In this document: piece after piece, positions 45,925 to 61,535 of the stretch
Position numbering within the stretch: position 1 is the first letter of the stretch
How the letters are laid out: every line of letters begins with the position of its first letter
NCBI RefSeq assembly: GCF_019430885.1
Contig: NZ_JAHYBZ010000010.1
Span: 124,001 to 188,000 of the forward strand
Source: Roseomonas alba
Lineage (GTDB): Bacteria > Pseudomonadota > Alphaproteobacteria > Acetobacterales > Acetobacteraceae
DNA length: 64,000 nt
Reading direction: 5' to 3'
The notes under the pieces: generated by a model
Database searches by the model: none
What the model was told of the DNA's origin: nothing
Seen by the model: only the letters and a program-made list of their open reading frames with translations
Translations under genes and position numbers: made by a program

Positions 45925-46851
45925 TCAGAAGCCGACCAGGTCGCCGCCCTTCAGGGCAAGCATCTGCCGCGCCTCGGCCGGGGTGGCGATCTCCAGCGAC
46001 AGTTCTTCCAGGATGCGACGGATCTTCGCGACCTGCTCGGCGTTGGACGTCGCGGCCTTTCCCTTGCCGATCCACAGGCTGTCCTCCAGCCCCACGCGCA
46101 CATTGCCGCCCAGCATGCCGGCCATGGTCACGAAGGGCATCTGGTGGCGCCCGGCGGCCAGCACGGACCAGACATAGTCCTTGCCGAAGAGCCGGTCCGC
46201 CGTCTCCTTCATGAACATCAGGTTGCGCGGCTCGGCACCAATGCCGCCCAGGATGCCGAAGATGGTCTGGGTGAACAGCGGCGGCTCGACCACCTTGCGG
46301 TCCAGCATATGGGCCAGGTTGTAGAGGTGGCCGACATCGTAGCACTCGAACTCGAAGCGCGTGCCGTGGCCCTTTCCCAGGCGTTCGACGATCTGCTCGA
46401 TGTCCTGGAAGGTGTTGCGGAAGATGTAGTTGGTGGTGCCTTCGAGGTAGGGCTTCTCCCACTCGTGCTTGAAGTGCTTCACCCGCGCGGCCGAGGGCGC
46501 GATGTTGAAGTTCATCGACCCCATGTTGAGGCTGCACATCTCGGGCTTTGCGAGCAGCGGGGCGGCCAGGCGCTCATCCACCGTCATGCCGAGGCCGCCG
46601 CCCGTCGTGATGTTGATGACCGCGTCGGTGGACTGCTTGATGACCGGCAGGAACTGCATGAACACCGCCGGGTCGGGCGTGGGGCGGCCGTCGATCGGGT
46701 CGCGGGCGTGCAGGTGGATGATGGAGGCGCCGGCCTCGGCGGCAGCGATGGACTGCTCCGCGATCTCCTGCGGCGTGATCGGCAGGTGGTCCGACATGGA
46801 CGGGGTGTGGATGGCGCCCGTGACGGCGCAGGTGATGATGACCTTGGACAT
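45925..46851 (-). CDS. BKACE-family enzyme (beta-keto acid cleavage, Kce-like)
   Basis: 308 residues of the 3-keto-5-aminohexanoate cleavage enzyme family. The zinc site HLHARDP (His46, His48) follows AAAEAGASIIH. GGGLGMTVDERL, MGSMNFNIAPSA, FECYDVGHLYNLAHMLDR, FGILGGIGAEP and GGNVRVGLEDSLW are family marks. These enzymes condense a beta-keto acid with acetyl-CoA to give acetoacetate and a new CoA thioester. Specificities vary (carnitine, lysine or other catabolism). ATG 46851 has GGAGG 8 bases upstream. No lysine fermentation genes are near, so the substrate is open. Confidence 0.93.
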   Translation of the reverse strand: MSKVIITCAVTGAIHTPSMSDHLPITPQEIAEQSIAAAEAGASIIHLHARDPIDGRPTPDPAVFMQFLPVIKQSTDAVINITTGGGLGMTVDERLAAPLLAKPEMCSLNMGSMNFNIAPSAARVKHFKHEWEKPYLEGTTNYIFRNTFQDIEQIVERLGKGHGTRFEFECYDVGHLYNLAHMLDRKVVEPPLFTQTIFGILGGIGAEPRNLMFMKETADRLFGKDYVWSVLAAGRHQMPFVTMAGMLGGNVRVGLEDSLWIGKGKAATSNAEQVAKIRRILEELSLEIATPAEARQMLALKGGDLVGF

Positions 46852-47063
46852 GCGCGTTCCTCCGCGAAGAGAGTCGATCATGTCCCGTGCAACGGGTCGC
46901 CGAAAGTCCCCCGGTGCCGATTCGGCCCACTGCTCCGCATCGGCCGGGACCGAATGCGCGATCACGCCCAACCCGCCCGCCGCCGCCCAGGCCGTCAGCG
47001 GCTGGCGCAACAGCCAAGCGGCCAGCGGCCGTGCTGGCGCTTACAGCAAACGACAACCCAAAG

Positions 47064-48421: not shown

Positions 48422-49633
48422 ATGACGCGCATCACCCTTCGCCGCCGCGCGCTCGGCGCCGCGGCGCTTGCGACACTGGCCCGCCCGGCCTTCGCGCAGG
48501 CGGCCCCCATCCGTGTCGGCGAACTGAACTCCTATTCCCGCATGGCGGCCTTCGCCGTACCCTATCGCAACGCCATGCAACTCGCCCTGGAAGCGGTGAA
48601 TGCGGCGGGTGGGGTGATGGGCGGCCGGCCGCTCGAATTCGTCTTCCGCGACGACGGATCGACCCCGGGCGATGCGGTGCGGGTCGCCGAGGAACTGCTG
48701 ACGCGGGAGAATGTCAGCTTCATCGCCGGCACGTTCCTGTCCAATGTCGGCCTCGCGGTCGCGGATTTCGCCAACCAGAAGCAACGCCTTTTCCTGGCGA
48801 CAGAGGCCCTGACCGACGCCCTGACCATGTCCCAGGGCAATCGCTATACCTTCCGCGTCCGGCCCAACACCTACATGCAGACCCGCATGATGGTGGAGGC
48901 GGTGCGCGGCAAGACGCAGAAGCGCTGGGCCGTCGTGGCGCCCAACTACGAATACGGCCAGTCGGCGGCGGCGAGCTTCAAGCGGCTGATCGGCACGGTC
49001 ATCCCGGGCGCCGAGGTCGTCACCGAGCAATTCCCCGCCCTCGGCCGCGTGGATGCCGGTGCAACGGTCGGCGCGATCGCCCAGGCGCGGCCCGATGCCA
49101 TCTTCAACGTGCTGTTCGGCCCGGACCTCGTGGCCTTCGTGCGGGAAGGCAACACCCGCGGCCTGTTCGAGCGGCGCCTGGTGCTCGGTCTTCTGACGGG
49201 CGAGCCGGAATACATGATCCCCCTCGGCGACGAGACGCCGGAGGGCTGGATCGTGACCGGCTATCCCTGGGAGCAGATCGAGACGCCGGCCTCCCACAAG
49301 GCCTTCGTTGCCGCCTATCGCGCCAAGTTCAACGACACGCCGCGGCTGGGTTCGCTGCTCGGCTATGTCGTCGTGCAGATGGTCGCGAACCTGCTGAACA
49401 AGGCGCCGGGCCTCGAAACCGATGCGCTGATCACGGCGCTCTCCGACCTCGAGACCGAGACCATCGCCGGCAAGGTGACGATGCGCGGGCTGGACCACCA
49501 GTCCACCCTCGGCGCCTGGGTGGGCGAAACGGCCTTGCAGAACGGCCGCGGCGTGCTGCGCAATTGGCGCTTCGCGGACGGCAAGGACTACATGTTCTCC
49601 GAGGCCGAGGTGCTCGTCGCGCGGCCACGCTGA
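48422..49633 (+). CDS. Branched-chain amino acid type ABC transporter, substrate-binding protein
   Basis: 403 residues. A signal peptide with LRRRALGAAALATLARPAFAQA, resembling a Tat signal, and AGGAGG 9 bases before ATG 48422. The mature protein is a type I periplasmic binding protein of the LivK/Leu-Ile-Val class (IRVGELNSYSRMA, ALEAVNAAGGVMGGRPLEFVFRDDGSTPGDAVRVAEEL, WAVVAPNYEYGQSAAASFK). The ligand need not be an amino acid; such proteins often bind aromatic or heterocyclic acids. The permease and ATPase genes begin 1.85 kb downstream, with an oppositely oriented oxygenase-like gene in between. Confidence 0.92.
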   Translation: MTRITLRRRALGAAALATLARPAFAQAAPIRVGELNSYSRMAAFAVPYRNAMQLALEAVNAAGGVMGGRPLEFVFRDDGSTPGDAVRVAEELLTRENVSFIAGTFLSNVGLAVADFANQKQRLFLATEALTDALTMSQGNRYTFRVRPNTYMQTRMMVEAVRGKTQKRWAVVAPNYEYGQSAAASFKRLIGTVIPGAEVVTEQFPALGRVDAGATVGAIAQARPDAIFNVLFGPDLVAFVREGNTRGLFERRLVLGLLTGEPEYMIPLGDETPEGWIVTGYPWEQIETPASHKAFVAAYRAKFNDTPRLGSLLGYVVVQMVANLLNKAPGLETDALITALSDLETETIAGKVTMRGLDHQSTLGAWVGETALQNGRGVLRNWRFADGKDYMFSEAEVLVARPR

Positions 49634-49643
49634 AAGTCGGGTG

Positions 49644-49669
49644 GGAAACGCGCCTCACGGCGCGTTTCC
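49644..49669. terminator. Bidirectional hairpin after the binding-protein gene
   Basis: GGAAACGCGCC (49644-49654) and GGCGCGTTTCC (49659-49669), a perfect 11-bp stem with loop TCAC, lie between the convergent binding-protein and cyclooxygenase-like genes. Confidence 0.65.
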
Positions 49670-49709
49670 GCGTTGGGCACCGGGCCGCACCCCCACGCGG
49701 CCGGACGGG

Positions 49710-51269
49710 TCAGGCCACCGGCCCGTCCGGATCGCCGTAGCGCCAGTCGGCCTGGGTCATCTCGACCGGGGTCGGTCCACGATGGGGCACGTTGCGCGCC
49801 AGCACGTCGCCAAGCTTGCTGGTCCGCTTGATCAGGTCGAAGCCCCAGGGGGTGAAGGTCGCCTCGTTCCAGACATGTTCGGACAGCAGGGGGTTTGTAA
49901 GCGCCTGGCTGAAGGCATCGACCGCGACCATGCGCAGCAACAAGCCTGGCAGGGGCGAGTCCTTCACCCGGTCCTCCGCCATCAGCCCGGGATAGAATTC
50001 GACATGGTCCGGATCGCCGTAGAGATCCTGCAGGGTCGCGGCGATCTGCGGATTGCTGCTGATCTCCGAGAAGTCGCGCGCCGGCTCCATGCCGAAGGCA
50101 ACGCGATAGGCATTGTAGGGGGCCAGCCGGTTGGTGCGCGCCTGCAGCACGGCGCGGTCCTCGATATGCAGCAGCGCGGCGGCGGTGTTGCGGGCGCCGA
50201 GCTTGGCGGCGGGCTGGGATGCGGCGGCCGAGAAGGCCGCATCCAGGCCGACGGCGAGCAGCGGCGCGTTGTTGGCGATGAAGCCGCGCAGCGGGATGTC
50301 GCCGGTCGGCCAGGCGATGGCGTCCGGCATCAGCGCGTGCCAGCGATAGAGCAGGCTGAATTCCACGGTCATCCAGTTCGGCCGGTTCCACTCGGCATGC
50401 CAGGCGACCGAGGGGTCCGCGCGCAGGCTGAAGGGCATGGGCGTGATGTGGTTGATGTAGTGCTCGACCACGATCTTGATGAAGAGGACGATGACGATGT
50501 TGCGCGCCACCTGGAAGACGCGCTCGTCGTTCCAGTCCGGATGCAGCGTCTGCAGGTGCCGGGCGATGCGGTTGTGTTCGCGCAGGAACAGCGTGTTCAT
50601 CATCGCCGTGAAGGGCGTGGAGTTGGCGCGGTCGCCGCCAATCGCGAACAGCGTGTCGAGCTGCGCCTGCGGCAGGGCCTCATCCACCAGCGGCGCGTCG
50701 AGAATGGCGAATTCCGGATCGGACAGCGCCTTCGTGCCGGTGGCGTAGAGGAAGGGCGGGAATTCCTCCGCACCGTCCATGCGGCTCTTGAGCAGCCCGC
50801 GGCGGCCGGCCTCCTCCGATTTCAGCCGCAGCGCGCGGGTCTGGGCAGGCGTCCGGCCATAGAGGGTGCAGAGGTCGATCTCGTGATTGCTGGTGGTCCG
50901 GTCCACCTGGCCCGGGACGGTGCGCAGGAAGCCATCGGTCAGGTATTGCGCGAAGGCGGGGAAGAGGCAGGTGGATTTGCGCGAGATCTGCGCTTCCCCG
51001 TCCGGCCGCGCGAAAAGCGCACGGACCCGTTCTGGGTCCGGCTGCACCGGCACGTCGACGGGGGGGAGGTGCCGCGCGAGGTAGCTGCGATCAGTCAGCC
51101 CCTGCCAGCATGTGTAGTCGGAGAAGCTGCTCCAGGGATGGGGCCGGTTGCGCGTGCTGCCGACGGCCTTGCCGATGACCGCGGCGCTCGCCTCGCCGGA
51201 CAGCCAGGCCCAGCCGTCGATCAGGTTTCCGGCAGCGCGGAACAGGCGTGCCTCAAGCCAGTCACTCAT
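49710..51269 (-). CDS. Bacterial cyclooxygenase-like heme protein (animal heme peroxidase superfamily)
   Basis: 519 residues aligning by eye over nearly its whole length with the catalytic domain of prostaglandin H synthase. SYLARHLPPV matches the Arg120 region (Arg66). STCLFPAFAQYLTDGFLRT matches the distal heme helix: Gln203 is kept (Gln108) but His207 is Asp112. LREHNRIARHL and DERVFQVARNIVIVLFIKIV match the core helices. EFSLLYRWHALMPD holds the Tyr385 (Tyr308) and proximal His388 (His311) equivalents. LYGDPDHVEFYPGLM and DAFSQALTNPLL (Ser454, for Ser530) follow. There is no EGF domain or signal peptide. Inference: a fatty-acid oxygenase with a weak or absent peroxidase half. It sits in opposite orientation inside the Liv-type transporter locus. 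Confidence 0.88.
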   Translation of the reverse strand: MSDWLEARLFRAAGNLIDGWAWLSGEASAAVIGKAVGSTRNRPHPWSSFSDYTCWQGLTDRSYLARHLPPVDVPVQPDPERVRALFARPDGEAQISRKSTCLFPAFAQYLTDGFLRTVPGQVDRTTSNHEIDLCTLYGRTPAQTRALRLKSEEAGRRGLLKSRMDGAEEFPPFLYATGTKALSDPEFAILDAPLVDEALPQAQLDTLFAIGGDRANSTPFTAMMNTLFLREHNRIARHLQTLHPDWNDERVFQVARNIVIVLFIKIVVEHYINHITPMPFSLRADPSVAWHAEWNRPNWMTVEFSLLYRWHALMPDAIAWPTGDIPLRGFIANNAPLLAVGLDAAFSAAASQPAAKLGARNTAAALLHIEDRAVLQARTNRLAPYNAYRVAFGMEPARDFSEISSNPQIAATLQDLYGDPDHVEFYPGLMAEDRVKDSPLPGLLLRMVAVDAFSQALTNPLLSEHVWNEATFTPWGFDLIKRTSKLGDVLARNVPHRGPTPVEMTQADWRYGDPDGPVA

Positions 51270-51481
51270 GGGTGCCCCCTGTGCGGTCGTCGCCGGGGGA
51301 TCATGCGCCCGCCACAGGCCCGTGGCGTGTATTCGCAGTCACTTCAATGCGAGATCGACATGAGAAACGCGCCGAATTTGCGACTGGACCGCGGGGGCCC
51401 CGGGCGTGATGCTTGCTGCTTCGCAGCATCCCCCGGAGCCTGATTCATGCCCGGCACCGCCGCTGATCCGATCGGGTGACG

Positions 51482-53323
51482 ATGGAACTGGATTTCGTTC
51501 TCATCCAGGCCCTGTCCGGCCTGGCCAGCGCATCGTCCCTGTTCGTCATCGCCTCGGGCCTGACGATCGTCTTCGGCGTCACGCGCATCGTGAACTTCGC
51601 GCATGGGTCCTTCTACATGCTGGGGGCCTATGCGGCGGTGACGATCGTGCCCTGGCTGCTGGAATTCGACCGCTCGCCGACGCTGTTCTTCGCCGGCGTG
51701 ATCGCTTCGGCGCTGGTGGTCGGGATGCTCGGCGTGGTGATGGAGGTCCTGCTGCTGCGCCGGATCTACAAGGTGCCGGAGCTGTTCCAGCTTCTCGCCA
51801 CCTTCGGGGTGGTGCTGATCGTGCAGGACCTGGTGCTGCTGGCCTGGGGGCCGGTGGATATCGCCGGGCCGCGCGCGCCGGGGCTGCGGCACGGCGTCTA
51901 TATCCTCGACCAGCGTTTCCCGGCCTACGAGCTGTTCCTGATCTTCGTCGGGCCGGCGGTGCTGGCGCTGCTGTGGCTGCTGATGCACCGCACGCGCTTC
52001 GGCGTGCTGATCCGCGCGGCGACGCAGGACCGGGAGATGGTGGGTGCCTTGGGCGTGAACCAGGCGATGCTGTTCACCGGCACCCTGTTCCTCGGCGCGG
52101 CGCTGGCGGGGCTGGGCGGCGCGCTCCAGATCCCGCGTGTCTCCGCCAACGCCCATATGGACCTGTCCGTCATCACCGAGGCCTTCGTCGTCACCGTCAT
52201 CGGCGGCATGGGGTCGGTGCCGGGAGCCTTCCTGGCAGCGCTGCTGATCGGGCTGCTGCAGGCCTTTGGCGTGCTGGTCTTCCCCAAGATCACGCTGGTG
52301 CTGGCCTTCCTGTTGATGGCGGTGGTGCTGGTGGTCAAGCCCTGGGGGCTGCTGGGCAAGCCGGATGTGGCGAGCGGCCGGGCCGTGCTGCCGGAAGGCA
52401 TCCTCGACCCGCGCCCGCTGGATCGGTTCGGCAAGGTCCTGGCGGGCGTGGCGGTGCTCGCCCTGCTCGCCTTGCCGCTGCTGGACGACTACTCGGTGAA
52501 GGTGGGGACCGAGGTGCTGATCTTCGCCCTGGCCGCCTTCTCGCTGAACTTCCTGGTCGGCAATGGCGGCATCGTCTCCTTTGGCCATGCCGCCTATTTC
52601 GGGCTCGGCGCCTATGGCGCGGGGATGCTGGTGACCAAGGCGGGGCTTTCGATGGAACCCGCGCTGCTGGCCGCGCCCATCGCCGGGGGTGCCGCGGCGG
52701 CGCTGTTCGGCTTCTTCGTGGTGCGGCTGTCGGGCATCTACCTGGCCATGCTGACCATGGCCTTCGCGCAGATCGCCTATGCCGTCGTGTTCCAATGGGT
52801 CGAGGTGACCGGCGGCGACAACGGGATCGTCGGCGTCTGGCCCTCCCGCTGGGCGGCATCGCGGGAGGTGTACCTGTACCTCACCGCCGCGCTGTCGATT
52901 GCCGCCATCCTGTTCCTCACCCGGGTGATCCGCGCGCCCTTTGGCGCGACGCTGCGCGCGGCGCGGGATTCGGCCGCACGGGCGGACGCCATCGGCATCG
53001 ATGTGCGCACCCATCGCTGGCTGGGATTCATCCTGGCCGGCGCGGCGGCGGGGCTGGCGGGTGGGCTCTATGCCTTCTCCAAGGGCTCGATCGATCCGAC
53101 GCTGCTGTCCATCCCGCTGTCGGTCGATTTCCTGTCGATGATCCTGCTGGGCGGCATCCAGTCGGTGTTCGGTCCCCTGGCCGGCGCGGCGGCCTTCCAC
53201 GCGGTGAAGGACCAGCTGATGCCGTTGACCGACCATTGGCGGCTGCTGCTGGGCCTTGCGATCATCGCCATGGTGCTGGCCTTCCCGCGCGGCCTGGCCG
53301 GGCTGCGGAGGCGCGCGGCATGA
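51482..53323 (+). CDS. Fused LivH-LivM permease of a branched-chain amino acid type ABC transporter
   Basis: 613 residues holding two permeases in one chain. Residues 1-290 are LivH-like (VFGVTRIVNFAHGSFYMLGAY; VIGGMGSVPGAFLAALLIG). About 325-613 is LivM-like (LNFLVGNGGIVSFGHAAYFGLGAYG; LAMLTMAFAQIAYAVVFQW; LLGGIQSVFGPLAGAAAF). The join is around residues 295-325. Such fusions occur, but usually the two are separate genes. About 14-16 membrane helices. The stop codon overlaps the livG start (ATGA). The start is ATG 51482 (MELDFVLIQ); no strong ribosome site is seen. Confidence 0.93.
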   Translation: MELDFVLIQALSGLASASSLFVIASGLTIVFGVTRIVNFAHGSFYMLGAYAAVTIVPWLLEFDRSPTLFFAGVIASALVVGMLGVVMEVLLLRRIYKVPELFQLLATFGVVLIVQDLVLLAWGPVDIAGPRAPGLRHGVYILDQRFPAYELFLIFVGPAVLALLWLLMHRTRFGVLIRAATQDREMVGALGVNQAMLFTGTLFLGAALAGLGGALQIPRVSANAHMDLSVITEAFVVTVIGGMGSVPGAFLAALLIGLLQAFGVLVFPKITLVLAFLLMAVVLVVKPWGLLGKPDVASGRAVLPEGILDPRPLDRFGKVLAGVAVLALLALPLLDDYSVKVGTEVLIFALAAFSLNFLVGNGGIVSFGHAAYFGLGAYGAGMLVTKAGLSMEPALLAAPIAGGAAAALFGFFVVRLSGIYLAMLTMAFAQIAYAVVFQWVEVTGGDNGIVGVWPSRWAASREVYLYLTAALSIAAILFLTRVIRAPFGATLRAARDSAARADAIGIDVRTHRWLGFILAGAAAGLAGGLYAFSKGSIDPTLLSIPLSVDFLSMILLGGIQSVFGPLAGAAAFHAVKDQLMPLTDHWRLLLGLAIIAMVLAFPRGLAGLRRRAA

Positions 53324-54099
53324 CGCTGCTGGCAGCCGAGGGCCTGGTGAAGCGCTTCGGCGGCGTGCTGGCCGCGAAGGATGTGTCCTTCGCGCTGGAC
53401 GCGGGCGAGATGCTCGCCATCATCGGCCCCAACGGGGCGGGGAAGTCGACCACCTTCAACATGGTGGGCGGGCAGCTTCGTCCCGATGGCGGGCGCGTCA
53501 TGCTCGAAGGTCGCGACGTCACCGGCATGCCGCCGCGCACGGTCTGCCGCATGGGCGTGGGTCGCACCTTCCAGGTGGCGCAGACCTTCCTGTCCTTCAC
53601 CGTCATCGGCAATGTCCAGATGGCGCTGATCGCCCATCATGGGCAGACGCGGAAGCTGCTGGGCGATGCCATGGCCATGCACCGTGCCGAGGCGCTGACG
53701 CTGCTCGACCGCGTCGGCATGGCCGCGCAGGCTGAACGCCCGATCGGCGAGCTCGCCTATGGCGACGTGAAGCGGGTCGAGCTGGCGATCGCGCTCGCGG
53801 CCGCCCCTCGCCTGCTGCTGATGGACGAACCCACCGCCGGCATGGCGCCGTCCGAGCGCGCGGCGCTGATGGCCCTGGTCGCCGGCATCGCGCGGGAGCA
53901 GCGCATCGGCGTGCTGTTCACCGAGCACGACATGGATGCCGTCTTCGCCCATGCCGATCGCATCCTGGTGCTGGTGCGCGGGGAGATCATCGCCCGCGGC
54001 ACGCCCGAGGAGGTGCGCAACGATCCGGAAGTACAGCGCGTCTATCTCGGCCACGCCGGGACGAAGGCGGCGCAGCGCGCGAGGCGTGCGCATGGCTGA
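53320..54099 (+). CDS. livG: Branched-chain amino acid type ABC transporter ATPase LivG
   Basis: 259 residues. Walker A GPNGAGKST, the LivG-type segment RTFQVAQTFLSFTVIGNVQ, signature LAYGDVKRVELAIAL (degenerate LSGGQ) and Walker B LLLMDEPTAGM, then TEHDMDAVF with the switch His. The ATG at 53320 overlaps the permease stop by 4 bases. It powers import with LivF and the fused permease. Confidence 0.95.
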   Translation: MTLLAAEGLVKRFGGVLAAKDVSFALDAGEMLAIIGPNGAGKSTTFNMVGGQLRPDGGRVMLEGRDVTGMPPRTVCRMGVGRTFQVAQTFLSFTVIGNVQMALIAHHGQTRKLLGDAMAMHRAEALTLLDRVGMAAQAERPIGELAYGDVKRVELAIALAAAPRLLLMDEPTAGMAPSERAALMALVAGIAREQRIGVLFTEHDMDAVFAHADRILVLVRGEIIARGTPEEVRNDPEVQRVYLGHAGTKAAQRARRAHG

Positions 54100-54805
54100 G
54101 CGCGTGCTGGAGGTCTCCGGCCTGTCCGCCGGCTATGGCCCGGCCGAGGTGCTGTTCGGCGTGGCCCTGCATCTCGACCGCGGCGAGGTCGCCGCCCTGA
54201 TGGGCCGCAACGGCGCGGGCAAATCCACCACCATGAAGGCCATCATGGGGCTGCTGACGCCGCGCGCCGGGTCGGTGCGCTTCGCGGGGCAGGACATCGC
54301 GGGGTTGGCGCCGTATCGCATCGCGCGGCTTGGCCTGGGCTATGTGCCCGAGGACCGGCGCATCTTCACCGACTTGTCGGTGATGGAGAATCTGGAAGTC
54401 GGGCGGCGCGCCGCACCCGCGGGCCGTGCCGCCTGGACCGCGGAACGATTGTTCGAAATCTTCCCCAACCTCGCGGAAATGCGGCATCGTCGGGCCTCCG
54501 CCATGTCGGGCGGGGAGCAGCAGATGCTGACCATCGCGCGCACCCTGATGGGCAATCCGGAAGCCGTGCTGCTGGACGAACCCTCCGAGGGCCTGGCCCC
54601 CGTGATCGTCGAGCAGATGGCCGAGGCGGTGCTGCGCATGAAGGCGGAAGGCATCGCCGTGCTGGTCTCGGAACAGGATCTGGACTTCGCCGCGGCCGTC
54701 GCCGACCGCGCGCTGATCCTGGAAAAGGGCCAGGTGCGGTGGGAAGGCCCGATCGCGACGCTTGAGGCGGATGAGGATGTCCGCCGCACCTATCTGACGG
54801 TCTGA
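54092..54805 (+). CDS. livF: Branched-chain amino acid type ABC transporter ATPase LivF
   Basis: 237 residues. Walker A GRNGAGKSTTMKAIMGL, Q-loop region YVPEDRRIFTDLSVMENL, signature MSGGEQQMLTIARTL, Walker B AVLLDEPSEGLAP and VSEQDLDFA (Gln where most ATPases have His, usual in LivF). It starts 8 bases before the livG stop. Only 5 bases separate it from the hydantoinase A gene, which ties transport to the catabolic genes. Confidence 0.95.
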   Translation: MAERVLEVSGLSAGYGPAEVLFGVALHLDRGEVAALMGRNGAGKSTTMKAIMGLLTPRAGSVRFAGQDIAGLAPYRIARLGLGYVPEDRRIFTDLSVMENLEVGRRAAPAGRAAWTAERLFEIFPNLAEMRHRRASAMSGGEQQMLTIARTLMGNPEAVLLDEPSEGLAPVIVEQMAEAVLRMKAEGIAVLVSEQDLDFAAAVADRALILEKGQVRWEGPIATLEADEDVRRTYLTV

Positions 54806-54810
54806 CACGC

Positions 54811-56829
54811 ATGACGCGACGCATTGCCGGCATCGATGTGGGCGGCACCTTCACCGATCTGGTGATGCAGGAGGCCGACGGCTCGATCCGCATCGCCAAG
54901 GTGCCGACCACGACCGCGAACCAGGCTGGCGGCGTGCTGGGCGCGATCGAGGCGGCGGGAACGACGCCGGCGGCGCTCGACCTGATCGTGCATGGCACGA
55001 CGGCGACAACGAATGCCGTGCTGGAACGCAAGCTGGCCAAGGTCGGGCTGATCACCACGGCGGGGTTCCGCGACGTGCTGGAGCTGGGTCGCCGCACCCG
55101 CCCGCGCGCCTATGGCATGACCGGCAGCTTCGAGCCGCTGATCCCGCGCGAATGGCGCCGCGAAGTCGCCGAACGCATGGATGCGCGCGGCGCCGTCGTC
55201 ACGCCGCTGGACGAGGCCGCCGTCGAACGCGAGGTCCGCGCGCTGATCGGCGAGGGCTGCGAGGCGCTCGTCATCCATTTCCTGCACGCCTATGCGAACC
55301 CCGCGCATGAACGCCGCGCCGGAGAGATCGCGCGCGCCATCTGGCCCAATGGCTACGTCACGCTGGGCCACGCGCTGCTGTCGGAATTCCGCGAATACGA
55401 ACGCGGCACCACGGCATCGGTGAACGCCGCGGTGCAGCCGGTGCTCGACCGCTACATCCGCCATCTGCAGGACCGCCTGGCCGAGGCCGGCCATGCGCGC
55501 GACCTGTTGGTGATGAACGGCAATGGCGGCACCGTGCCGGCCCGCGCGGTCGCGGCGGAAGCGGCGAAGACGGTGATGTCCGGCCCGGCCTCCGGCGTCA
55601 TGGCGGCCGCCGCCACCTTGACCCAGGCAGGCGTGCGCAACGCCATCACCTGCGACATGGGCGGGACCTCGACCGATGTCGCGCTGATCGCGGGCGGCGT
55701 GCCGGAAGTCTCGGCGGAATTGTCGATCGCCTATGGCCTGCCGATCCATCTGCCCATGGTCGATGTGCGCACCGTGGGCGCGGGTGGCGGGTCCATCGCC
55801 TGGATCGATCGCGGCGGCATGCTGCGCGTGGGGCCGGAAAGCGCGGGCTCCACCCCCGGCCCGATCTGCTACGGGCGCGGCGGCACGCGGCCGACCGTGA
55901 CGGACGCGAACCTCGTGCTGGGGCGGCTAGACCCCGATGCGCTGCTCGCCACCGGCCGGCGCGTGACGGTCGAGGAAGTCCGCGACGCCTTTGCCCGTGA
56001 TATCGGCGACCCGCTCGGCATGACGCCGGAACAGGCCGCGGAGGCCGTGATCCGCTTGGCCAATGTACTGATGGCGGGCGCGATCCGGATGGTGTCGCTG
56101 TCCCGCGGCCACGACCCGCGCGACTTCGCGCTGTTCGCCTTCGGCGGCGCCGGGCCGCTGCACGCCGTGGCGTTGGCGCGGGAGATCGGCATCCCGGAAG
56201 TCTTCGTCCCCTTCCGCCCGGGCCTGACCAACGCGCTCGGCTGCCTGGTCGCCGATCTGCGACAGGACGTGGTGAACACGCTGAACCGCGGGCTGGATGA
56301 CATCGCCGAGGCCGAGATCGCCGAAGTGCTGGCCGCACAGGAATCGCGCGGCCGGTCCGGGGTCGCCGCCGGCGGCGCCGAGGTCGAACGCATCGAAGTC
56401 CAGCGCGTCGCCGAAATGCAGTTCCGCGGCCAGACGCATCTGATCCGCGTGGCGCTCGACTCCGCCACGCCGTCGCGCGGCCAAGTACAGGCGGCCTTCG
56501 AGGAAGCCTATTACGCGCGCTTCCACGTCAGCCTGCCGGAAATCCGCGCCGTGCTGGTGAACCTGACCACCAGCGTGATCGGACGGCGCAAGACATTCGA
56601 TATGCGCGCGCTGGCGGCCGGCGGCACGGGAGAGGCGCGGCTCGGCACGCGGCGTCTCTACGCGGAGGGCAGTTGGCATGAGGCGACGATCTGGCGACGC
56701 GAGGCGTTGGCGGTCGACTCGCGAATCTCAGGGCCCGCCGTGCTGCAACAGGCGGATGCGACGATCATCCTGGAGCCAGGCAGCAAGGCCAGCGTCGATG
56801 CGCTCGGCAATCTGAGGGTGCGGGCATGA
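54811..56829 (+). CDS. hyuA: Hydantoinase/oxoprolinase-type protein, subunit A
   Basis: 672 residues of the HyuA/OxoA family (actin-like ATPase fold). N-terminal phosphate loop IDVGGTFTDLV, IVHGTTATTNAVLERK, LVMNGNGGTVPARAVAAEAAKTVMSGPASG, CDMGGTSTDVALI and FAFGGAGPLHAVALAREI. Family members, with subunit B, use ATP to open 5-membered cyclic amides (5-oxoproline, hydantoins) or to carboxylate ketones. It is co-transcribed with livF upstream and followed by its B partner after a 142-base repeat-filled gap. Confidence 0.94.
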   Translation: MTRRIAGIDVGGTFTDLVMQEADGSIRIAKVPTTTANQAGGVLGAIEAAGTTPAALDLIVHGTTATTNAVLERKLAKVGLITTAGFRDVLELGRRTRPRAYGMTGSFEPLIPREWRREVAERMDARGAVVTPLDEAAVEREVRALIGEGCEALVIHFLHAYANPAHERRAGEIARAIWPNGYVTLGHALLSEFREYERGTTASVNAAVQPVLDRYIRHLQDRLAEAGHARDLLVMNGNGGTVPARAVAAEAAKTVMSGPASGVMAAAATLTQAGVRNAITCDMGGTSTDVALIAGGVPEVSAELSIAYGLPIHLPMVDVRTVGAGGGSIAWIDRGGMLRVGPESAGSTPGPICYGRGGTRPTVTDANLVLGRLDPDALLATGRRVTVEEVRDAFARDIGDPLGMTPEQAAEAVIRLANVLMAGAIRMVSLSRGHDPRDFALFAFGGAGPLHAVALAREIGIPEVFVPFRPGLTNALGCLVADLRQDVVNTLNRGLDDIAEAEIAEVLAAQESRGRSGVAAGGAEVERIEVQRVAEMQFRGQTHLIRVALDSATPSRGQVQAAFEEAYYARFHVSLPEIRAVLVNLTTSVIGRRKTFDMRALAAGGTGEARLGTRRLYAEGSWHEATIWRREALAVDSRISGPAVLQQADATIILEPGSKASVDALGNLRVRA

Positions 56830-56840
56830 CGGAAGAAAGA

Positions 56841-56958
56841 CGGGGGAGGAACACCTCCCCCAAATCCCCCTCCGTTTTTTGGCCGTTGGGGACTGACGGC
56901 GGGGGGCTGCGCCAAGTGACCAAAAAAAGGAGGGGGTTCGGGGGAGTTCTCTCCCCCG
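56841..56958. repeat. Inverted pair of C/G-rich repeat B between hyuA and hyuB
   Basis: Copy 1 (56841-56882, inverted): GGGGGAGGAACACCTCCCCC then AAATCCCCCTCCGTTTTTTGG. Copy 2 (56920-56958, forward): CCAAAAAAAGGAGGGGGTTC then GGGGGAGTTCTCTCCCCC. The two are imperfect reverse complements and could form one long helix. Copy 2 ends 13 bases before the hyuB ATG. A third, forward copy stands before the next gene at 58738-58775. Confidence 0.85.
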
Positions 56959-56971
56959 ACCTTTGCGCCTG

Positions 56972-58711
56972 ATGGATGCTCTTACCCTCGCCGTCATCCA
57001 GGCCGGGTTGCAGCAGGTCTGCAACGAGATGGACCTGGCCTTCACACGCTCAGCCTTCTCGCCGGTGATCGCGGAGGCGGATGACCGCTCCGACGGCATC
57101 TATGCCGCCGAGGATGGTGCGCTGATCGCCCAGGGCGAGGGCGGGTTGCCGGTCTTCGTCGGGGCCATGCAGCATTCGGCCGGCCACCTGATCCGGCTGA
57201 TCGGCGAAGGTGCGGTCGCCGCGCCGGAACCGGGCGACATCTACATCGTCAACGACCCCTATCTGGGCGGGACGCATCTGATGGATGTGCGCTTCGCCCG
57301 CCCCTTCTTCGTGGACGGCCAGTTGTTCTGCTGGCTGCAGAACACCGGCCACTGGCCCGACACGGGCGGTATGGTGCCGGGCGGCTTCAGCGCGCATGCG
57401 ACCGAGGTCGAGCAGGAAGGTCTGCGCCTGCCCCCGGTGAAGCTGTTCAAGCGCGGGGAGATGGATCGCGAGATCCTGTCCATCATCCAGTCCAACATCC
57501 GCGTCGCCGAACAGCGCATCGGCGACATCAAGGCACAGGCCGCCGCCCTGCTGGTGGGCGAACGGCGCCTCACCGAGATCGTGGATCGCTATGGCGCGGA
57601 CACGCTGCGTGAGGCGATCGCTCTGATCCGCGACCGCGCCACCGAGCGTATGCGCGCCGAAATCCGCCGCATGCCCGAAGCGACCTGGCGGGCCGAGGCC
57701 TTCGTCGATTCGGATGGCGTGGTGAACGAGCCGCTGCGCATCGCGCTCGCCGTCACGCGGCGCGGCGATACGCTGACCTTCGACTTCACGGGATCGTCCA
57801 AGCCCTGCGCGGGGCCGATGAATTCGGTGTGGGCCACGACCTATTCGGCCGTGTGCCTGGGCGTGAAGCACATCTTCCCCGACGTACCGATCAATGCCGG
57901 GACCTTCGCGCCGCTGGAGATCATCCGGCCGGAAGGCACCTTCCTCGATGCGCGGTATCCGCGGCCGGTTTCGGGCTGCGCGGCGGAAGTCAGCCAGCGC
58001 ATCGCGGAGGCCGTGTTCCTGTGCCTGGTGCAGGCGCTGCCGGATGAGGTGACGGCGGCTCCGGCGGGGACGTCCGGGAACTTCGCGCTGGGTGGGTTCG
58101 ATCCCGCGCGTGGCGCCGGATATGTGATGTATCAGATCACCGGCGGTGGGTATGGCGGCAATGCGGGTGAGGACGGGCTGTCCAATGGATGCTCGACCAT
58201 CGGCATCAGCAAGACCGCGCCGGTCGAGGTGATGGAGCAATATTACCCCGTGCTGTTCACGCGCTTCGCGCTGCGCGAGGGGTCGGGCGGCGCCGGCGCG
58301 CATCGCGGCGGTTTCGGCGTGCATTACGAGGTCGAGCTGCTGCGTGGCGAGGCGCGGGCGTCCTTCGTCATGGACCATGGCCGCTTTGGCCCACCTGGCG
58401 TGCTCGGAGGCGGCGATGGCGCACCCAATGTGGTGCGCATCCATCGGAGCGGCGAGACGACCATTCCGCCGCATCTGTCGAAGGACCAGGGCATTGCATT
58501 GTCGCCCGGCGACCGCGTGGAGGTGATGACGCCCGGCGGTGGCGGCTATGGCGATCCCTTCGCACGCGATCCCGCGCTGGTCGCCCGTGACGTGCGCCGC
58601 GGCTACTACACGGCGCAGCAGGCGTCGGCATTGTGGGGCGTGGCAATCGCCGCCGATGGAAGCGTCGATATCGCCGCCACCTCCGCCCTCCGTCGGGGGG
58701 TCGCCGCCTGA
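56972..58711 (+). CDS. hyuB: Hydantoinase/oxoprolinase-type protein, subunit B
   Basis: 579 residues of the HyuB family. NEMDLAFTRSAFSPVIAEADDRSDGIYAAEDGALIAQ, GDIYIVNDPYLGGTHLMDVRFARP, FDFTGSSKPCAGPMNS, GGGYGGNAGEDG and the C-terminal PGGGGYGDPFARDPALVARDV are family marks. ATG 56972 chosen (a TTG at 56963 is possible). Its nearest ribosome-binding-like sequence (AAGGAGGGG) is inside the repeat more than 35 bases upstream, with a hairpin between. It acts with HyuA. Confidence 0.95.
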   Translation: MDALTLAVIQAGLQQVCNEMDLAFTRSAFSPVIAEADDRSDGIYAAEDGALIAQGEGGLPVFVGAMQHSAGHLIRLIGEGAVAAPEPGDIYIVNDPYLGGTHLMDVRFARPFFVDGQLFCWLQNTGHWPDTGGMVPGGFSAHATEVEQEGLRLPPVKLFKRGEMDREILSIIQSNIRVAEQRIGDIKAQAAALLVGERRLTEIVDRYGADTLREAIALIRDRATERMRAEIRRMPEATWRAEAFVDSDGVVNEPLRIALAVTRRGDTLTFDFTGSSKPCAGPMNSVWATTYSAVCLGVKHIFPDVPINAGTFAPLEIIRPEGTFLDARYPRPVSGCAAEVSQRIAEAVFLCLVQALPDEVTAAPAGTSGNFALGGFDPARGAGYVMYQITGGGYGGNAGEDGLSNGCSTIGISKTAPVEVMEQYYPVLFTRFALREGSGGAGAHRGGFGVHYEVELLRGEARASFVMDHGRFGPPGVLGGGDGAPNVVRIHRSGETTIPPHLSKDQGIALSPGDRVEVMTPGGGGYGDPFARDPALVARDVRRGYYTAQQASALWGVAIAADGSVDIAATSALRRGVAA

Positions 58712-58737
58712 TGCGCCTGATGCTCCCTGGTGACAGA

Positions 58738-58775
58738 CAAAAGAAGGAGGGGGTCCGGGGGAGTTCACTCCCCCG
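58738..58775 (+). repeat. Repeat B, third copy, before the iron-sulphur reductase gene
   Basis: AAAAGAAGGAGGGGGTCC followed by GGGGGAGTTCACTCCCCC (7-bp stem, loop TTCA). It has the same layout as the copy before hyuB and ends 12 bases before the ATG of the next gene. Confidence 0.85.
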
Positions 58776-58787
58776 CCCTTCGCTGCC

Positions 58788-60272
58788 ATGACCAATCGCA
58801 CCGCCCGCAGCGAAAAGTTCGGCGCCGCCGAGGGTGACGGCATCATCCGCTGCGATGCCTGTCCTGTCCTCTGCCGCATCCGCCCCGGCCGGTCCGGCGC
58901 GTGTTCGCGCTATGCCAACGACAATGGCGTGCTGGTCCGCACCGATCCCGCGCTCGCCCTGATGCATGCTGTTGAGGGCAACCAGCCTTTGGTGCCCTTC
59001 GCGCAGGCGGAGTGGGACGGCACGCTGATCGACCCGTCGCGCGTCTTCGTCACCGGCGTGGGGTCCGGAACCACCTATCCCGACTACAAGCCCGCGCCCT
59101 TCATCGTCGGTGCGCAGCATGACGGCGTGGACACCGTCACCGTCGTGACGGAGGGCATGTTCAGCTATTGCGGCGTGAAGGTGAAGATCGACACCGACCG
59201 CCATCTGGGCCCCGAGGCTGCGCCGGTGCGGGTGAAGGGCGAGCAGGTCGGCCATGTCACGACCGCCGAATACGGGTCGCAGATGCTGTCCATCGGCGGC
59301 GTCCGGCATCTGACCGGCGGGTCGAAGAAGGAAGGCGTCGTGACCTGCGAGACGCTGTTGAAGCTCTGCGATGCCGAGGCGGTGGAGATGACCATAGATG
59401 GTGGCCACGCCGTTGTCGTGCAGGCCGGCGCGGCGCCGATCGTCGATGGCGTGCCGGAACTCCGCATGCGCGTAGGCTGCGGCAGCGCGACGGTCGGCAT
59501 CTTCGCGCAGCAATGGCTGGGGCATGTGGATGAGGTGATCGTGGTCGACGACCACATCACAGGCGTGCTGTCGGAACACCAGGCCGGCAAGGTGCTGGCC
59601 ATGAAGCCGACAGGCATCCGCGTGCGCGGGCGGCGGTCGACGCCGGGGCGGTATTTCCAGGTGGCGCAGCCGGGCCTCGGCTGGGGCGGGACGGACATCA
59701 CAGATCCGCTCGAGATCATCGAGAGCATCGACCCCAGGATGGCATGGCCCGGGCTCCGGCTGCTGATGACCAGCACCACCGGCGATCACGCGCTGTATTG
59801 CGTGCTGGACGAGGCGCTGCGGCCCGTCGAGGCCGAGATGCCGGCCGCCGTGCGCATGGTGGTCGATCGCATCGGGGAGAATTGCGAGCCGTCGCTGTGT
59901 TCGGTGGTCTTCATGGCCGGCGCCGGGGGATCGCTGCGCGCGGGTGTGACAGAAAACCCGGTACTGCTGACGCGTTCGGTCGCGCGGGGAGAGACACGGG
60001 TCACCATGGGCGGTGCGCCGGTCTATCTGTGGCCCGGCGGAGGCATCACCGTGATGGCCGACGTACTGCGCATGCCGAAGCACGCCTTCGGGCATGTGCC
60101 GACGCCCGCCGTGGTCGCACCGATCGAATTCACTCTGCCAAGGGCGCTGTACGAGCGGCTCGGCGGGCACATGACAGAAGTGACGCCGGTCGAGGATGTA
60201 TTGCGGGGTCTCGGCGCGGATCTACGGGTCGAAACATGGCACCCGGGGAACACCTGGCCGTTCGGACGGTAA
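58788..60272 (+). CDS. 6-Hydroxynicotinate-reductase-like iron-sulphur flavoprotein
   Basis: 494 residues. The N-terminus has a ferredoxin-like cluster site, CDACPVLCRI then GACSRY (Cys22, 25, 29, 39), and further conserved-looking Cys at about 128, 187, 194, 231, 366 and 371. GSGTTYPDYKPAPFIVG, TEGMFSYCGVKVKIDTDRHL and GRRSTPGRYFQVAQPG match my memory of 6-hydroxynicotinate reductase (Hnr) homologues. That enzyme uses ferredoxin to reduce 6-hydroxynicotinate to 1,4,5,6-tetrahydro-6-oxonicotinate, and the clostridial form has several Fe-S clusters and covalent flavin. GSLRAGVTENP (381-391) could hold a flavinylated Thr388. The ApbE-like gene downstream fits that. The substrate here is unproven, since no nicotinate hydroxylase is near. 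Confidence 0.75.
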   Translation: MTNRTARSEKFGAAEGDGIIRCDACPVLCRIRPGRSGACSRYANDNGVLVRTDPALALMHAVEGNQPLVPFAQAEWDGTLIDPSRVFVTGVGSGTTYPDYKPAPFIVGAQHDGVDTVTVVTEGMFSYCGVKVKIDTDRHLGPEAAPVRVKGEQVGHVTTAEYGSQMLSIGGVRHLTGGSKKEGVVTCETLLKLCDAEAVEMTIDGGHAVVVQAGAAPIVDGVPELRMRVGCGSATVGIFAQQWLGHVDEVIVVDDHITGVLSEHQAGKVLAMKPTGIRVRGRRSTPGRYFQVAQPGLGWGGTDITDPLEIIESIDPRMAWPGLRLLMTSTTGDHALYCVLDEALRPVEAEMPAAVRMVVDRIGENCEPSLCSVVFMAGAGGSLRAGVTENPVLLTRSVARGETRVTMGGAPVYLWPGGGITVMADVLRMPKHAFGHVPTPAVVAPIEFTLPRALYERLGGHMTEVTPVEDVLRGLGADLRVETWHPGNTWPFGR

Positions 60273-60362
60273 TGCCGGAGGGCGGCGCGCCACCCCTCCC
60301 AGAACCTCGCCAGACCGAAGGCTGCGGGAGCTCCGGATGACCTTGATGCTTCCGCTACGGAA

Positions 60363-60610
60363 CCGAGAGGGGCTTTGCCTCTCTCGGGCTCACCCCGACA
60401 AAGGCCGAATGGCCTTTGCAAACCTCGATCTGGCGCCCTGCGCCACGGGAAGCAACATACCGGGGCCCGCTCCTGTGCACGAAGGGCTGTTGGTGCGCCC
60501 GGTATCAGACGACCGAAGCCCAGGATGGCCAGGATCCGGGAGGGCCATCGAGGCTGCAATGCGCCGTCGATGGGAACCTGGGCGGGGTGGCCTGGAGGGG
60601 CAGAGCGTCG
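60363..60610. repeat. Composite palindromic repeat, locus 4
   Basis: Left arm, inverted and complete: 60363-60429 (CGAGAGGGGCTTTGCCTCTCTCG, then AAAGGCCGAATGGCCTTTGC, then AACCTCGAT). The adjoining bases (CTGGCGCCCTGCGCC, GCAACATACCGG, GCTCCTGTGCACGAAGGGC) are the inverted equivalents of those before the units at loci 2 and 3. Right arm: a truncated forward unit near 60582-60606 (GGCGGGGTGGCCTGGAGGGG). It fills most of the 423 bases between the reductase and UPF0280 genes. No gene is seen in this gap. Confidence 0.8.
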
Positions 60611-60695
60611 CGGACCGCGGCAACAACGGCATCCTGGCCACTGGACAGAGGCCGATGCCTGGCGCCGGCCATTCCCGGCGGAAGGCGTGGGCGTC

Positions 60696-61535
60696 GTGAG
60701 TTCGGTGCAGCGGCTGGCCGGCGATCGGCTGCACCTGTCGCATGGCCCCATTGACGTAGTCCTGCGGGCCTGGGGCACCCCGGATGCGGTCCGCGCGGCC
60801 GAGTCCGCTGCCATTGCCGTGTTCCCGGGCATCCTTCCCGGGCTGGCGGCGGAGCTGGCCGAGCTCCGCCGGCCGATGGCGGAGGCGCCACAGGTCGCGC
60901 ATCCGATCGCGCGGCGCATGGTCGCCGCCTGCGCGCCCTTCGCTCCGGTCTTCCTGACGCCCATGGCCGCGGTGGCGGGCGCCGTGGCCGATGCGTTGCT
61001 GGCCGCGATGCTTCGGGCCGCGCCGCTGGATCGCGCCTATGTCAATAATGGTGGGGATATCGCCGTACGCGTCGCGGCAGGACAGAGCATCGCCATTGGC
61101 CTGGCCGACGATCCGCTGCGGCTTGCCCTGCAGGGTGCGCTGCTTATCACCGGCGACAGCGGCATTGGCGGCGTGGCGACGTCGGGGCGGCATGGCCGCT
61201 CCTTCTCGCTGGGCATCGCGGATGCGGTGACGGTGCTGGCGCGGGATGCCGCAATGGCCGATGCCGCCGCGACGCTGATCGCCAATGCGGTGGATTGCGA
61301 CAGCCCGGCCGTGCGCCGCGCAACCGCCGTCTCCCGCGATCCCGACAGCGACCTCGGCGAGCACCTGGTCACAGTCGATGTCGGCACCCTGTCGGCGACG
61401 GAAGTGGCACAGGCCCTCGATGCCGGCCTGGCGCGGGCGGAGGCCTTCCGCGCCGCAGGCCACATCATCGGCGCCGCAATGCGCCTGGGTGGCGCGCTGC
61501 GCACCACAGGCCTCCCTGCCCTGCCTGCCCCCTGA
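60696..61535 (+). CDS. UPF0280-family protein (ApbE-like fold)
   Basis: 279 residues. LHLSHGPIDVVLRAWG, ELRRPMAEAPQVAHPIARRMVAAC, FLTPMAAVAGAVADALLAAM and YVNNGGDIAVRVAAG are the conserved blocks of UPF0280, which shares the fold of the ApbE flavin transferases. ApbE enzymes attach FMN to a Thr of a target protein. Next to an Hnr-like reductase, the simplest inference is maturation of that enzyme, but this is unproven for UPF0280. GTG 60696 is used; upstream in-frame GTG codons (60687) are possible. Last gene of the catabolic group. Confidence 0.82.
   Translation: MSSVQRLAGDRLHLSHGPIDVVLRAWGTPDAVRAAESAAIAVFPGILPGLAAELAELRRPMAEAPQVAHPIARRMVAACAPFAPVFLTPMAAVAGAVADALLAAMLRAAPLDRAYVNNGGDIAVRVAAGQSIAIGLADDPLRLALQGALLITGDSGIGGVATSGRHGRSFSLGIADAVTVLARDAAMADAAATLIANAVDCDSPAVRRATAVSRDPDSDLGEHLVTVDVGTLSATEVAQALDAGLARAEAFRAAGHIIGAAMRLGGALRTTGLPALPAP

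Follow-up and report, generated by a model that had tools for sequence, protein, structure and literature searches.

In the aerobic nic route, nicotinate is degraded by ring hydroxylation and dioxygenase cleavage, whereas ring reduction and lactam opening are predicted for the Roseomonas alba locus described here. The gene cluster for nicotinate fermentation in Eubacterium barkeri was reportedly published by Alhapel in 2006, and the 6-hydroxynicotinate reductase (Hnr) of this organism is said to carry a covalent flavin. Within the alphaproteobacteria, a nicotinate cluster was described for Azorhizobium and Bradyrhizobiaceae, of which strain SG-6C degrades nicotinate as well as 6-hydroxynicotinate (PMC3511419, in part). 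The window analysed here is the whole stretch of 64,000 nucleotides from a genome of 6.33 Mb (99.16% complete). It encodes a Liv-type importer, HyuA and HyuB, an Hnr-like protein and a UPF0280 protein. It is fairly probable, though well short of certain, that these genes form a reduced nicotinate-type operon in which an importer is combined with ring reduction by Hnr, HyuAB takes the place of an enamidase and UPF0280 is needed for Hnr. The initial annotation had proposed import, ring reduction and ATP-dependent lactam opening as a route without any described counterpart. The logic of this route is backed by comparative evidence, but the pathway type had already been described, as the locus is a variant form of an alphaproteobacterial nicotinate cluster with 6-hydroxynicotinate reduction (PMC3511419, in part). 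The pathway substrates, the direction of the reactions and the chemistry of UPF0280 are the parts of this reading that we infer. The features are as follows.

48422..49633, + strand: substrate-binding protein (SBP, Peripla_BP_6) of the importer (PF13458, E 2.1e-63), proposed to bind nicotinate or 6-hydroxynicotinate; its orthologues are associated with Hnr or Nic genes
51476..53323, + strand: fused LivH-LivM permease (PF02653, BPD_transp_2, in two stretches)
53320..54099, + strand: LivG ATPase (PF00005, PF12399); its ATG at 53320 overlaps the permease stop (53323)
54092..54805, + strand: LivF ATPase (PF00005); its ATG at 54092 overlaps the livG end (54099)
54811..56829, + strand: HyuA, ATP-binding subunit of a predicted ATP-dependent lactamase (Hydantoinase_A, E 3.1e-93)
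56963..58711, + strand: HyuB, metal-binding subunit (Hydantoinase_B, E 6.7e-163); start TTG 56963, with ATG 56972 possible
58712..58787, + strand: hyuB-hnr junction, where most close relatives have genes for an FAD subunit and a fused molybdenum (Mo) hydroxylase
58788..60272, + strand: Hnr-like (6-hydroxynicotinate reductase-like) Fe-S protein, after the NCBI names of homologues
59547..59588, + strand: Hnr motif DDHITGVLSEHQAG (residues 254-267), proposed flavin attachment site, with only Ser or Thr at residue 262
60687..61535, + strand: UPF0280/COG2122 protein (NF003322), distant ApbE relative and proposed Hnr maturase; start GTG 60687 or 60696

The eight genes for SBP, permease, LivG, LivF, HyuA, HyuB, Hnr-like protein and UPF0280 are all present and open on the plus strand in the order given in the initial annotation. 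The tight spacing reported there was also found, with livG overlapping the permease stop, livF overlapping livG and 5 bases between livF and hyuA.

A lack of conservation of the neighbourhood had been named beforehand as a possible refutation; it proved to be widely conserved in the examined loci and the reading was not refuted. Three samples were compared, which share some genomes and comprise 155 partly overlapping loci: 7-20 kb around Hnr from 59 of 67 class relatives, 80 named loci (the best 80 of 273), and 16 of 32 strong matches from a phylum search over 398 genomes, three of these 16 lying outside the class. Furthermore, 72,556 plasmid records were searched. UPF0280 was located at most 1.5 kb downstream of Hnr in 59/59, 75/80 and 16/16 loci of the three samples, and this clustering is far from chance. 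The nearest named Hnr relatives belong to Neoroseomonas and Roseomonas (86-88% identical), and homologues with 78-88% identity carry the NCBI name 6-hydroxynicotinate reductase. Most close relatives (Neoroseomonas, Falsiroseomonas, Phreatobacter) show the order LivHM-LivG-LivF-HyuA-HyuB-FAD-Mo-Hnr-UPF0280. Counted at any identity, the 59 class loci contain the Mo hydroxylase in 55 cases, the FAD subunit in 50, PF06684 in 41, MarR in 35, the permease in 28, HyuA in 22, HyuB in 18 and enamidase in 15.

Hnr and UPF0280 also occur in identical sets of genomes. The class search over 385 genomes (E 1e-3) yielded 77 Hnr and 69 UPF0280 matches; after removal of nine Hnr matches (other reading frames, ~35-45 residues long) and a weak UPF0280 match (E 4.1e-4), each protein was found in 68 genomes including the own one. 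Hnr is present on 26 and UPF0280 on 27 plasmid records, and all 26 Hnr records carry both. Five loci are devoid of an adjacent UPF0280 gene: two are cut off by the contig end, and in L152, L156 and L173 it lies elsewhere in the genome. All five genomes possess the gene. An apparent UPF0280 match inside hnr of the latter three was rejected as an artefact of a wrongly extended query. Since UPF0280 is almost always found with Hnr, it is probably needed for Hnr activation, and it is proposed from these comparisons that UPF0280 matures Hnr, perhaps via covalent flavinylation.

The UPF0280 protein scored 336.4 bits against NF003322, above the cut-off of 290; this is the UPF0280 model according to annotated records. 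Among solved proteins, 2o34, taken to be from Desulfovibrio, is a distant relative. Ser166 and Asp192 are invariant in 134 rows, and the ApbE-like motifs ATSG and AD-x-x-x-T are retained (ApbE side: PMC12052999, in part). On the side of the partner, the Hnr motif D-x-I-T-[G/A]-x-x-[S/T] is nearly invariant. Position 262, within DDHITGVL[S/T]EHQAG, is Thr in 70, Ser in 68 and a gap in one of 139 rows, and Ser or Thr in 23 of 23 further loci. The most specific version of the proposal, namely that UPF0280/COG2122 acts in the cytosol as an ApbE-type flavin transferase reserved for Hnr and places FMN onto Ser/Thr 262 of DDHITGxx[S/T]EH, is nevertheless regarded as doubtful.

Several observations speak against a role as flavin transferase or against a strict bond with Hnr. 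The ApbE partner consensus is D-x-x-[ST]-G-A-[ST], and the catalytic residues of Vc ApbE are S241, H257 and D285 (PMC12052999, in part). The acceptor in D-H-I-T-G-V-L-[S/T] of Hnr stands one residue later than in this consensus, and no conserved counterpart of the catalytic His was found in the 134 UPF0280 rows, the correspondence being judged by motif. Against Pfam ApbE, UPF0280 reached 21.7 bits and stayed under the cut-off of 25.6. One UPF0280 plasmid (Hydrogenophaga BPS33) lacks Hnr, with IS1071 just upstream, and no solved relative of Hnr was found by sequence. Finally, COG2122 (MA1715) is assigned a role in sulfur trafficking in methanogens and is genetically linked to DUF39-dependent homocysteine synthesis (PMC12068725 and PMC5764234, both in part). 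UPF0280 might thus serve Hnr in sulfur trafficking or Fe-S maturation rather than as a flavin transferase. This explanation has an appreciable, if less than even, chance of being correct. Besides the published role and the missing His, it is favoured by nine conserved cysteines of Hnr, eight of which are kept in 138 or more of 139 rows and the ninth in 115 or more; the retention of ATSG and AD-x-x-x-T in UPF0280, the covalent flavin reported for Hnr of E. barkeri and a partner motif position occupied only by Ser or Thr argue against it. Nothing was found in the open-licence literature on UPF0280 by that name.

Hnr residues 129-166 (59172-59285) gave a weak but uniform GCV_T_C match in 58 of 58 scanned members (best E 1.5e-4; P0007 scored 18.5 bits, with the cut-off at 25.9), possibly a clue to the fold of this protein. 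A relationship between Hnr and DUF39 was considered and discarded, as no such Pfam match was obtained in 58 members at E 10, a search whose filters drop most weak matches.

The affiliation to the nicotinate cluster is indicated by the other genes found at Hnr loci. The hydroxylase of the L069 cluster matched the nicotinate dehydrogenase of E. barkeri (3hrd) with 244, 223 and 125 bits over its three subunits; as a rough sum, this exceeds the best single-chain match of 392 bits. The enamidase of the L079 cluster matched the solved enamidase 2vun (E 2e-109). Both matches fit the described nicotinate cluster. A second, NicB-like type of hydroxylase is linked in other loci, e.g. L223, L227, L229 and the beta-proteobacterial plasmid L237; the large subunit in L227 contains cytochrome c domains.

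As far as the window is concerned, the initial annotation is correct in stating that a nicotinate hydroxylase is missing. Mo-hydroxylase genes are found directly upstream of hnr in 10 of the 12 nearest loci (L111-L122, 86-88% Hnr identity), where they are preceded by FAD and hyuB wherever the locus extends far enough. In the window, hyuB is directly followed by hnr, as is also the case in Neoroseomonas lacus (N. lacus, L114), L119, L124 and the Methylobacterium loci L136, L138, L145, L148, L149, L154 and L167, while L130 retains a Mo fragment. Whole-genome searches of ten genomes recovered the hydroxylase orthologue with 84 and 81% identity in the controls L111 and L117. In the other eight genomes, the top matches had identities of 38-39% (four Methylobacterium genomes) or 33-34% (N. 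lacus, L119, L124 and the window genome). By these comparisons, the hydroxylase genes have been lost in the lineage of the window and in others. Because the loss tree contained coding errors (L146 was scored without Mo though Mo is present, and L122, L137 and L144 lie near contig ends), only three separate losses are claimed: in L124, in the Methylobacterium clade, and in the group of the window, N. lacus and L119, which may represent a single event.

In the own genome, matches to the cluster-type hydroxylase were 28-36% identical over the Mo domain, with pieces of the 2Fe-2S domain up to 56%. A NicB-like query against the whole own genome gave at best 32%, and one match with 39% covers only 175 C-terminal residues. 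An unlinked own hydroxylase was also sought among ten Mo-hydroxylase loci fetched from the genome, none of which was orthologue-like to the NicB-like large subunits (23-38%, partial length). No enamidase was found in the own genome by a search that had no positive control there.

The importer points to the ligand. Orthologues of SBP and permease are present in Hnr clusters, including those with enamidase, and in aerobic nic clusters. Among the plasmid matches listed for SBP, 29 records showed at least 48.7% identity, followed by a drop to 31.9%. Hnr is encoded on 14 of these 29 records. Five of the 15 Hnr-less ones were examined, and NicA/NicB-like proteins were found near the transporter in four, NicX in two and NicC in one; the record of Caballeronia M1242 had no NicA/NicB-like, NicC or NicX gene within 10 kb of the transporter. 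NicC was identified against a solved 6-hydroxynicotinate 3-monooxygenase and NicX against a 2,5-dihydroxypyridine dioxygenase. On a Roseomonas mucosa plasmid (L244), the transporter orthologue adjoins NicC (5eow, E 5e-189) and NicX, and on an Agrobacterium vitis plasmid (L245) it adjoins NicX (7cn3, E 4e-95). It therefore appears that a single importer type is used in two nicotinate routes of different chemistry. This points to nicotinate or 6-hydroxynicotinate as the ligand, and SBP-LivHM-LivG-LivF probably imports one of these. The association with NicC and NicX also argues against a binding protein limited to leucine-type ligands, the second refutation considered in the initial annotation.

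Given the fact that the window lineage has no hydroxylase, its substrate need not be nicotinate. The operon could degrade another hydroxylated N-heterocycle, such as another pyridone or hydroxypyridine carboxylate, the nicotinate link being ancestral only. This is rather unlikely, as enamidase clusters and aerobic nic clusters contain orthologues of SBP and permease, and the hydroxylase is kept in the great majority of the nearest loci mentioned above.

The ring opener of the proposed operon would be HyuAB. The solved structures closest to HyuA are 7hk5 and CapA (6yra), and CapB (6yra) is closest to HyuB. HyuA contains the ATP motifs DVGGTFTD at position 9, DMGGT at 282 and STPGP at 347, in agreement with the motifs DxGGT, DMGGT and PGP of lactamase A subunits, which were described along with the catalytic motifs of caprolactamase (PMC8453981, in part). 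D41, H105, D108 and H130 of HyuB align with the metal ligands of CapB (Asp-His-Asp-His site). Judged by alignment, HyuAB of the window carries the catalytic residues of the caprolactamase type (CapAB).

The ring opener in the examined Hnr loci is either enamidase or HyuAB. Enamidase versus HyuA/B was counted in 15 versus 22 of 59, 22 versus 40 of 80 and 6 versus 4 of 16 loci (pooled 43 versus 66 of 155), and both together in none. With an identity threshold of 50%, 138 of the first 139 loci gave 37 with enamidase, 59 with HyuA/B and none with both (Fisher p 9e-12). At least nine switches are needed on the best tree for the 51 rows with either gene. Several results, however, weaken the exclusivity. 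Neither ring opener was found in 42 of the 138 loci, and the effect was weaker after thinning at 75% identity (9 versus 13 of 35 rows, p 0.013). An independent-pairs test over all 75 tree rows was not significant (sign test, median p 1): of the eight supported pairs that differ in enamidase, HyuA/B differed in the opposite direction in a mean of 1.4, in the same direction never and not at all in 6.6. Five supported pairs were opposite when only rows with either gene were used, but this is so by construction. The Sulfitobacter plasmid S190, the sole near-exception seen, combines a cluster enamidase with a distant HyuA (43%) ~9 kb from Hnr. The ten best plasmid matches of HyuB (at least 70.6%) are all on Hnr-bearing records, yet the next among those listed are five Sinorhizobium medicae plasmids (66.8-66.9%) without Hnr. 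After control for relatedness, the evidence that HyuAB stands in for enamidase is suggestive.

It is improbable that HyuAB performs an unrelated ATP-dependent hydrolysis of a lactam or hydantoin and is found beside Hnr through shared regulation or transport. Paralogues are indeed common, with HyuB-like matches on 927 plasmid records, and the relatedness-controlled test mentioned above leaves room for it. However, cluster HyuA proteins are at least 56% identical to the queries while four other HyuA found do not exceed 48%, and the HyuA/B genes occur around Hnr in several different gene orders, never with enamidase in the three samples. No report joining hydroxynicotinate with hydantoinase was found in the open-licence literature.

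PF06684 (amino acid synthesis) proteins, e.g. in L045, L079 and L081, occur in two copies in 32 of 138 loci, of which 18 contain enamidase and two HyuA. The Sagittula stellata plasmid L236, typed as conjugative, carries a cluster of the HyuAB type in which Hnr and UPF0280 are joined by hydroxylase, ferredoxin-NADP reductase, two PF06684 genes and the transporter. On a Pleomorphomonas plasmid the order is Hnr-UPF0280-PF06684-HyuA-HyuB-NicR, with no hydroxylase annotated nearby. Genes that we take to encode KorA/KorB and ferredoxin-NADP reductase lie near Hnr in six and five of the 59 class loci, respectively, and the latter enzyme is annotated in clusters of Sagittula, two Sulfitobacter and one Comamonadaceae plasmid. 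The proximity of these genes to Hnr suggests reduced ferredoxin as its electron donor.

One gene in the window interrupts the cluster and was missing from the gene list of the initial annotation:

49710..51269, - strand: gene for a haem peroxidase of the animal type, located between those for SBP and permease and outside the proposed pathway (PF03098, An_peroxidase, E 1.5e-46)

It was seen again in one of the 80 named loci (L119) and in none of the 59 class loci, many of which stop short of SBP. On the same strand, 45925-47010 presumably encodes a protein resembling a beta-keto acid cleavage enzyme (BKACE/DUF849). The gap between hnr and UPF0280 measures 414 bp (60273-60686) with the GTG start at 60687, compared with ~20-190 bp in four close relatives (L111, L113, L114, L119), and contains sequence that recurs with 78 and 87% identity near 38.9 kb and 9.4 kb, respectively, of the window. 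A dispersed palindromic repeat with the core GGGGGAGTTCNCTCCCCC flanks hyuB on both sides (56940-56957 and 58757-58774); this core occurs in 13 exact copies in the genome, while its reversed control has none. Although the hyuB-hnr spacer is similar to the spacer between Mo and hnr in relatives, a deletion scar was dismissed since the shared palindrome is this dispersed repeat. A decaying cluster with a defunct pathway, as the missing FAD and Mo genes, the inserted peroxidase gene and the repeat-bearing gap might indicate, is very improbable because the remaining genes are all open, the catalytic residues of HyuAB are kept, and N. lacus and a Methylobacterium clade have retained this reduced set as well.

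In the proposed operon for nicotinate-type substrates, SBP-LivHM-LivG-LivF would import 6-hydroxynicotinate, the likelier substrate here, or nicotinate. The hydroxylated ring would be converted by the Hnr-like Fe-S enzyme to a cyclic amide, either 1,4,5,6-tetrahydro-6-oxonicotinate or a fully saturated lactam, and HyuAB would open this amide with ATP in place of enamidase. The ATP might be spent on either the tetrahydro product of the E. barkeri type or a fully saturated lactam with uphill hydrolysis. UPF0280 would make Hnr active, presumably as an ApbE-like transferase that installs the covalent flavin. With the ring hydroxylase lost, the cell probably uses 6-hydroxynicotinate released by others or an unlinked hydroxylase. 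That this first enzyme was lost repeatedly suggests that 6-hydroxynicotinate is obtained by cross-feeding; the compound appears transiently in culture supernatants (PMC3511419, in part).

Compared with the cluster of Azorhizobium caulinodans and Bradyrhizobiaceae SG-6C (PMC3511419, in part), the window cluster is devoid of hydroxylase and PF06684, and it contains HyuAB where other Hnr loci have enamidase, so that an ATP-spending lactamase apparently occupies the place of that enzyme. Two proteins given for the described cluster may correspond to the UPF0280 and PF06684 proteins of the Hnr loci. It resembles the nicotinate fermentation of E. barkeri in its Hnr-type ring reduction, which follows hydroxylation there, and the hydroxylase of a relative resembles 3hrd; E. 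barkeri, unlike the window, uses enamidase (PMC9304392, in part). HyuAB shares two subunits, ATP motifs and the Asp-His-Asp-His metal site with CapAB, 5-oxoprolinase and N-methylhydantoinase. Still, HyuA and HyuB remain far under the NCBIfam equivalog cut-offs of CapA and CapB (503 and 309 bits, both cut-offs 1000), and their substrate is predicted to be a pyridine-derived lactam, unlike those of the CapAB family. With the aerobic nic loci on the plasmids of Roseomonas mucosa and Agrobacterium vitis, the window shares an orthologous SBP-LivHM-LivG-LivF, by which a likely importer of nicotinate or 6-hydroxynicotinate common to two degradation routes can be named. UPF0280, a family of unknown molecular function, is given a concrete and testable role. 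Like COG2122 with DUF39/COG1900 in Desulfovibrio and methanogens, it is paired with a partner enzyme of unknown mechanism, but this partner is Hnr in the window (PMC5764234 and PMC12068725, both in part). If UPF0280 is indeed the flavin transferase of Hnr, the sulfur-trafficking role of COG2122 would have to be reread as maturation of a redox partner (DUF39/COG1900).

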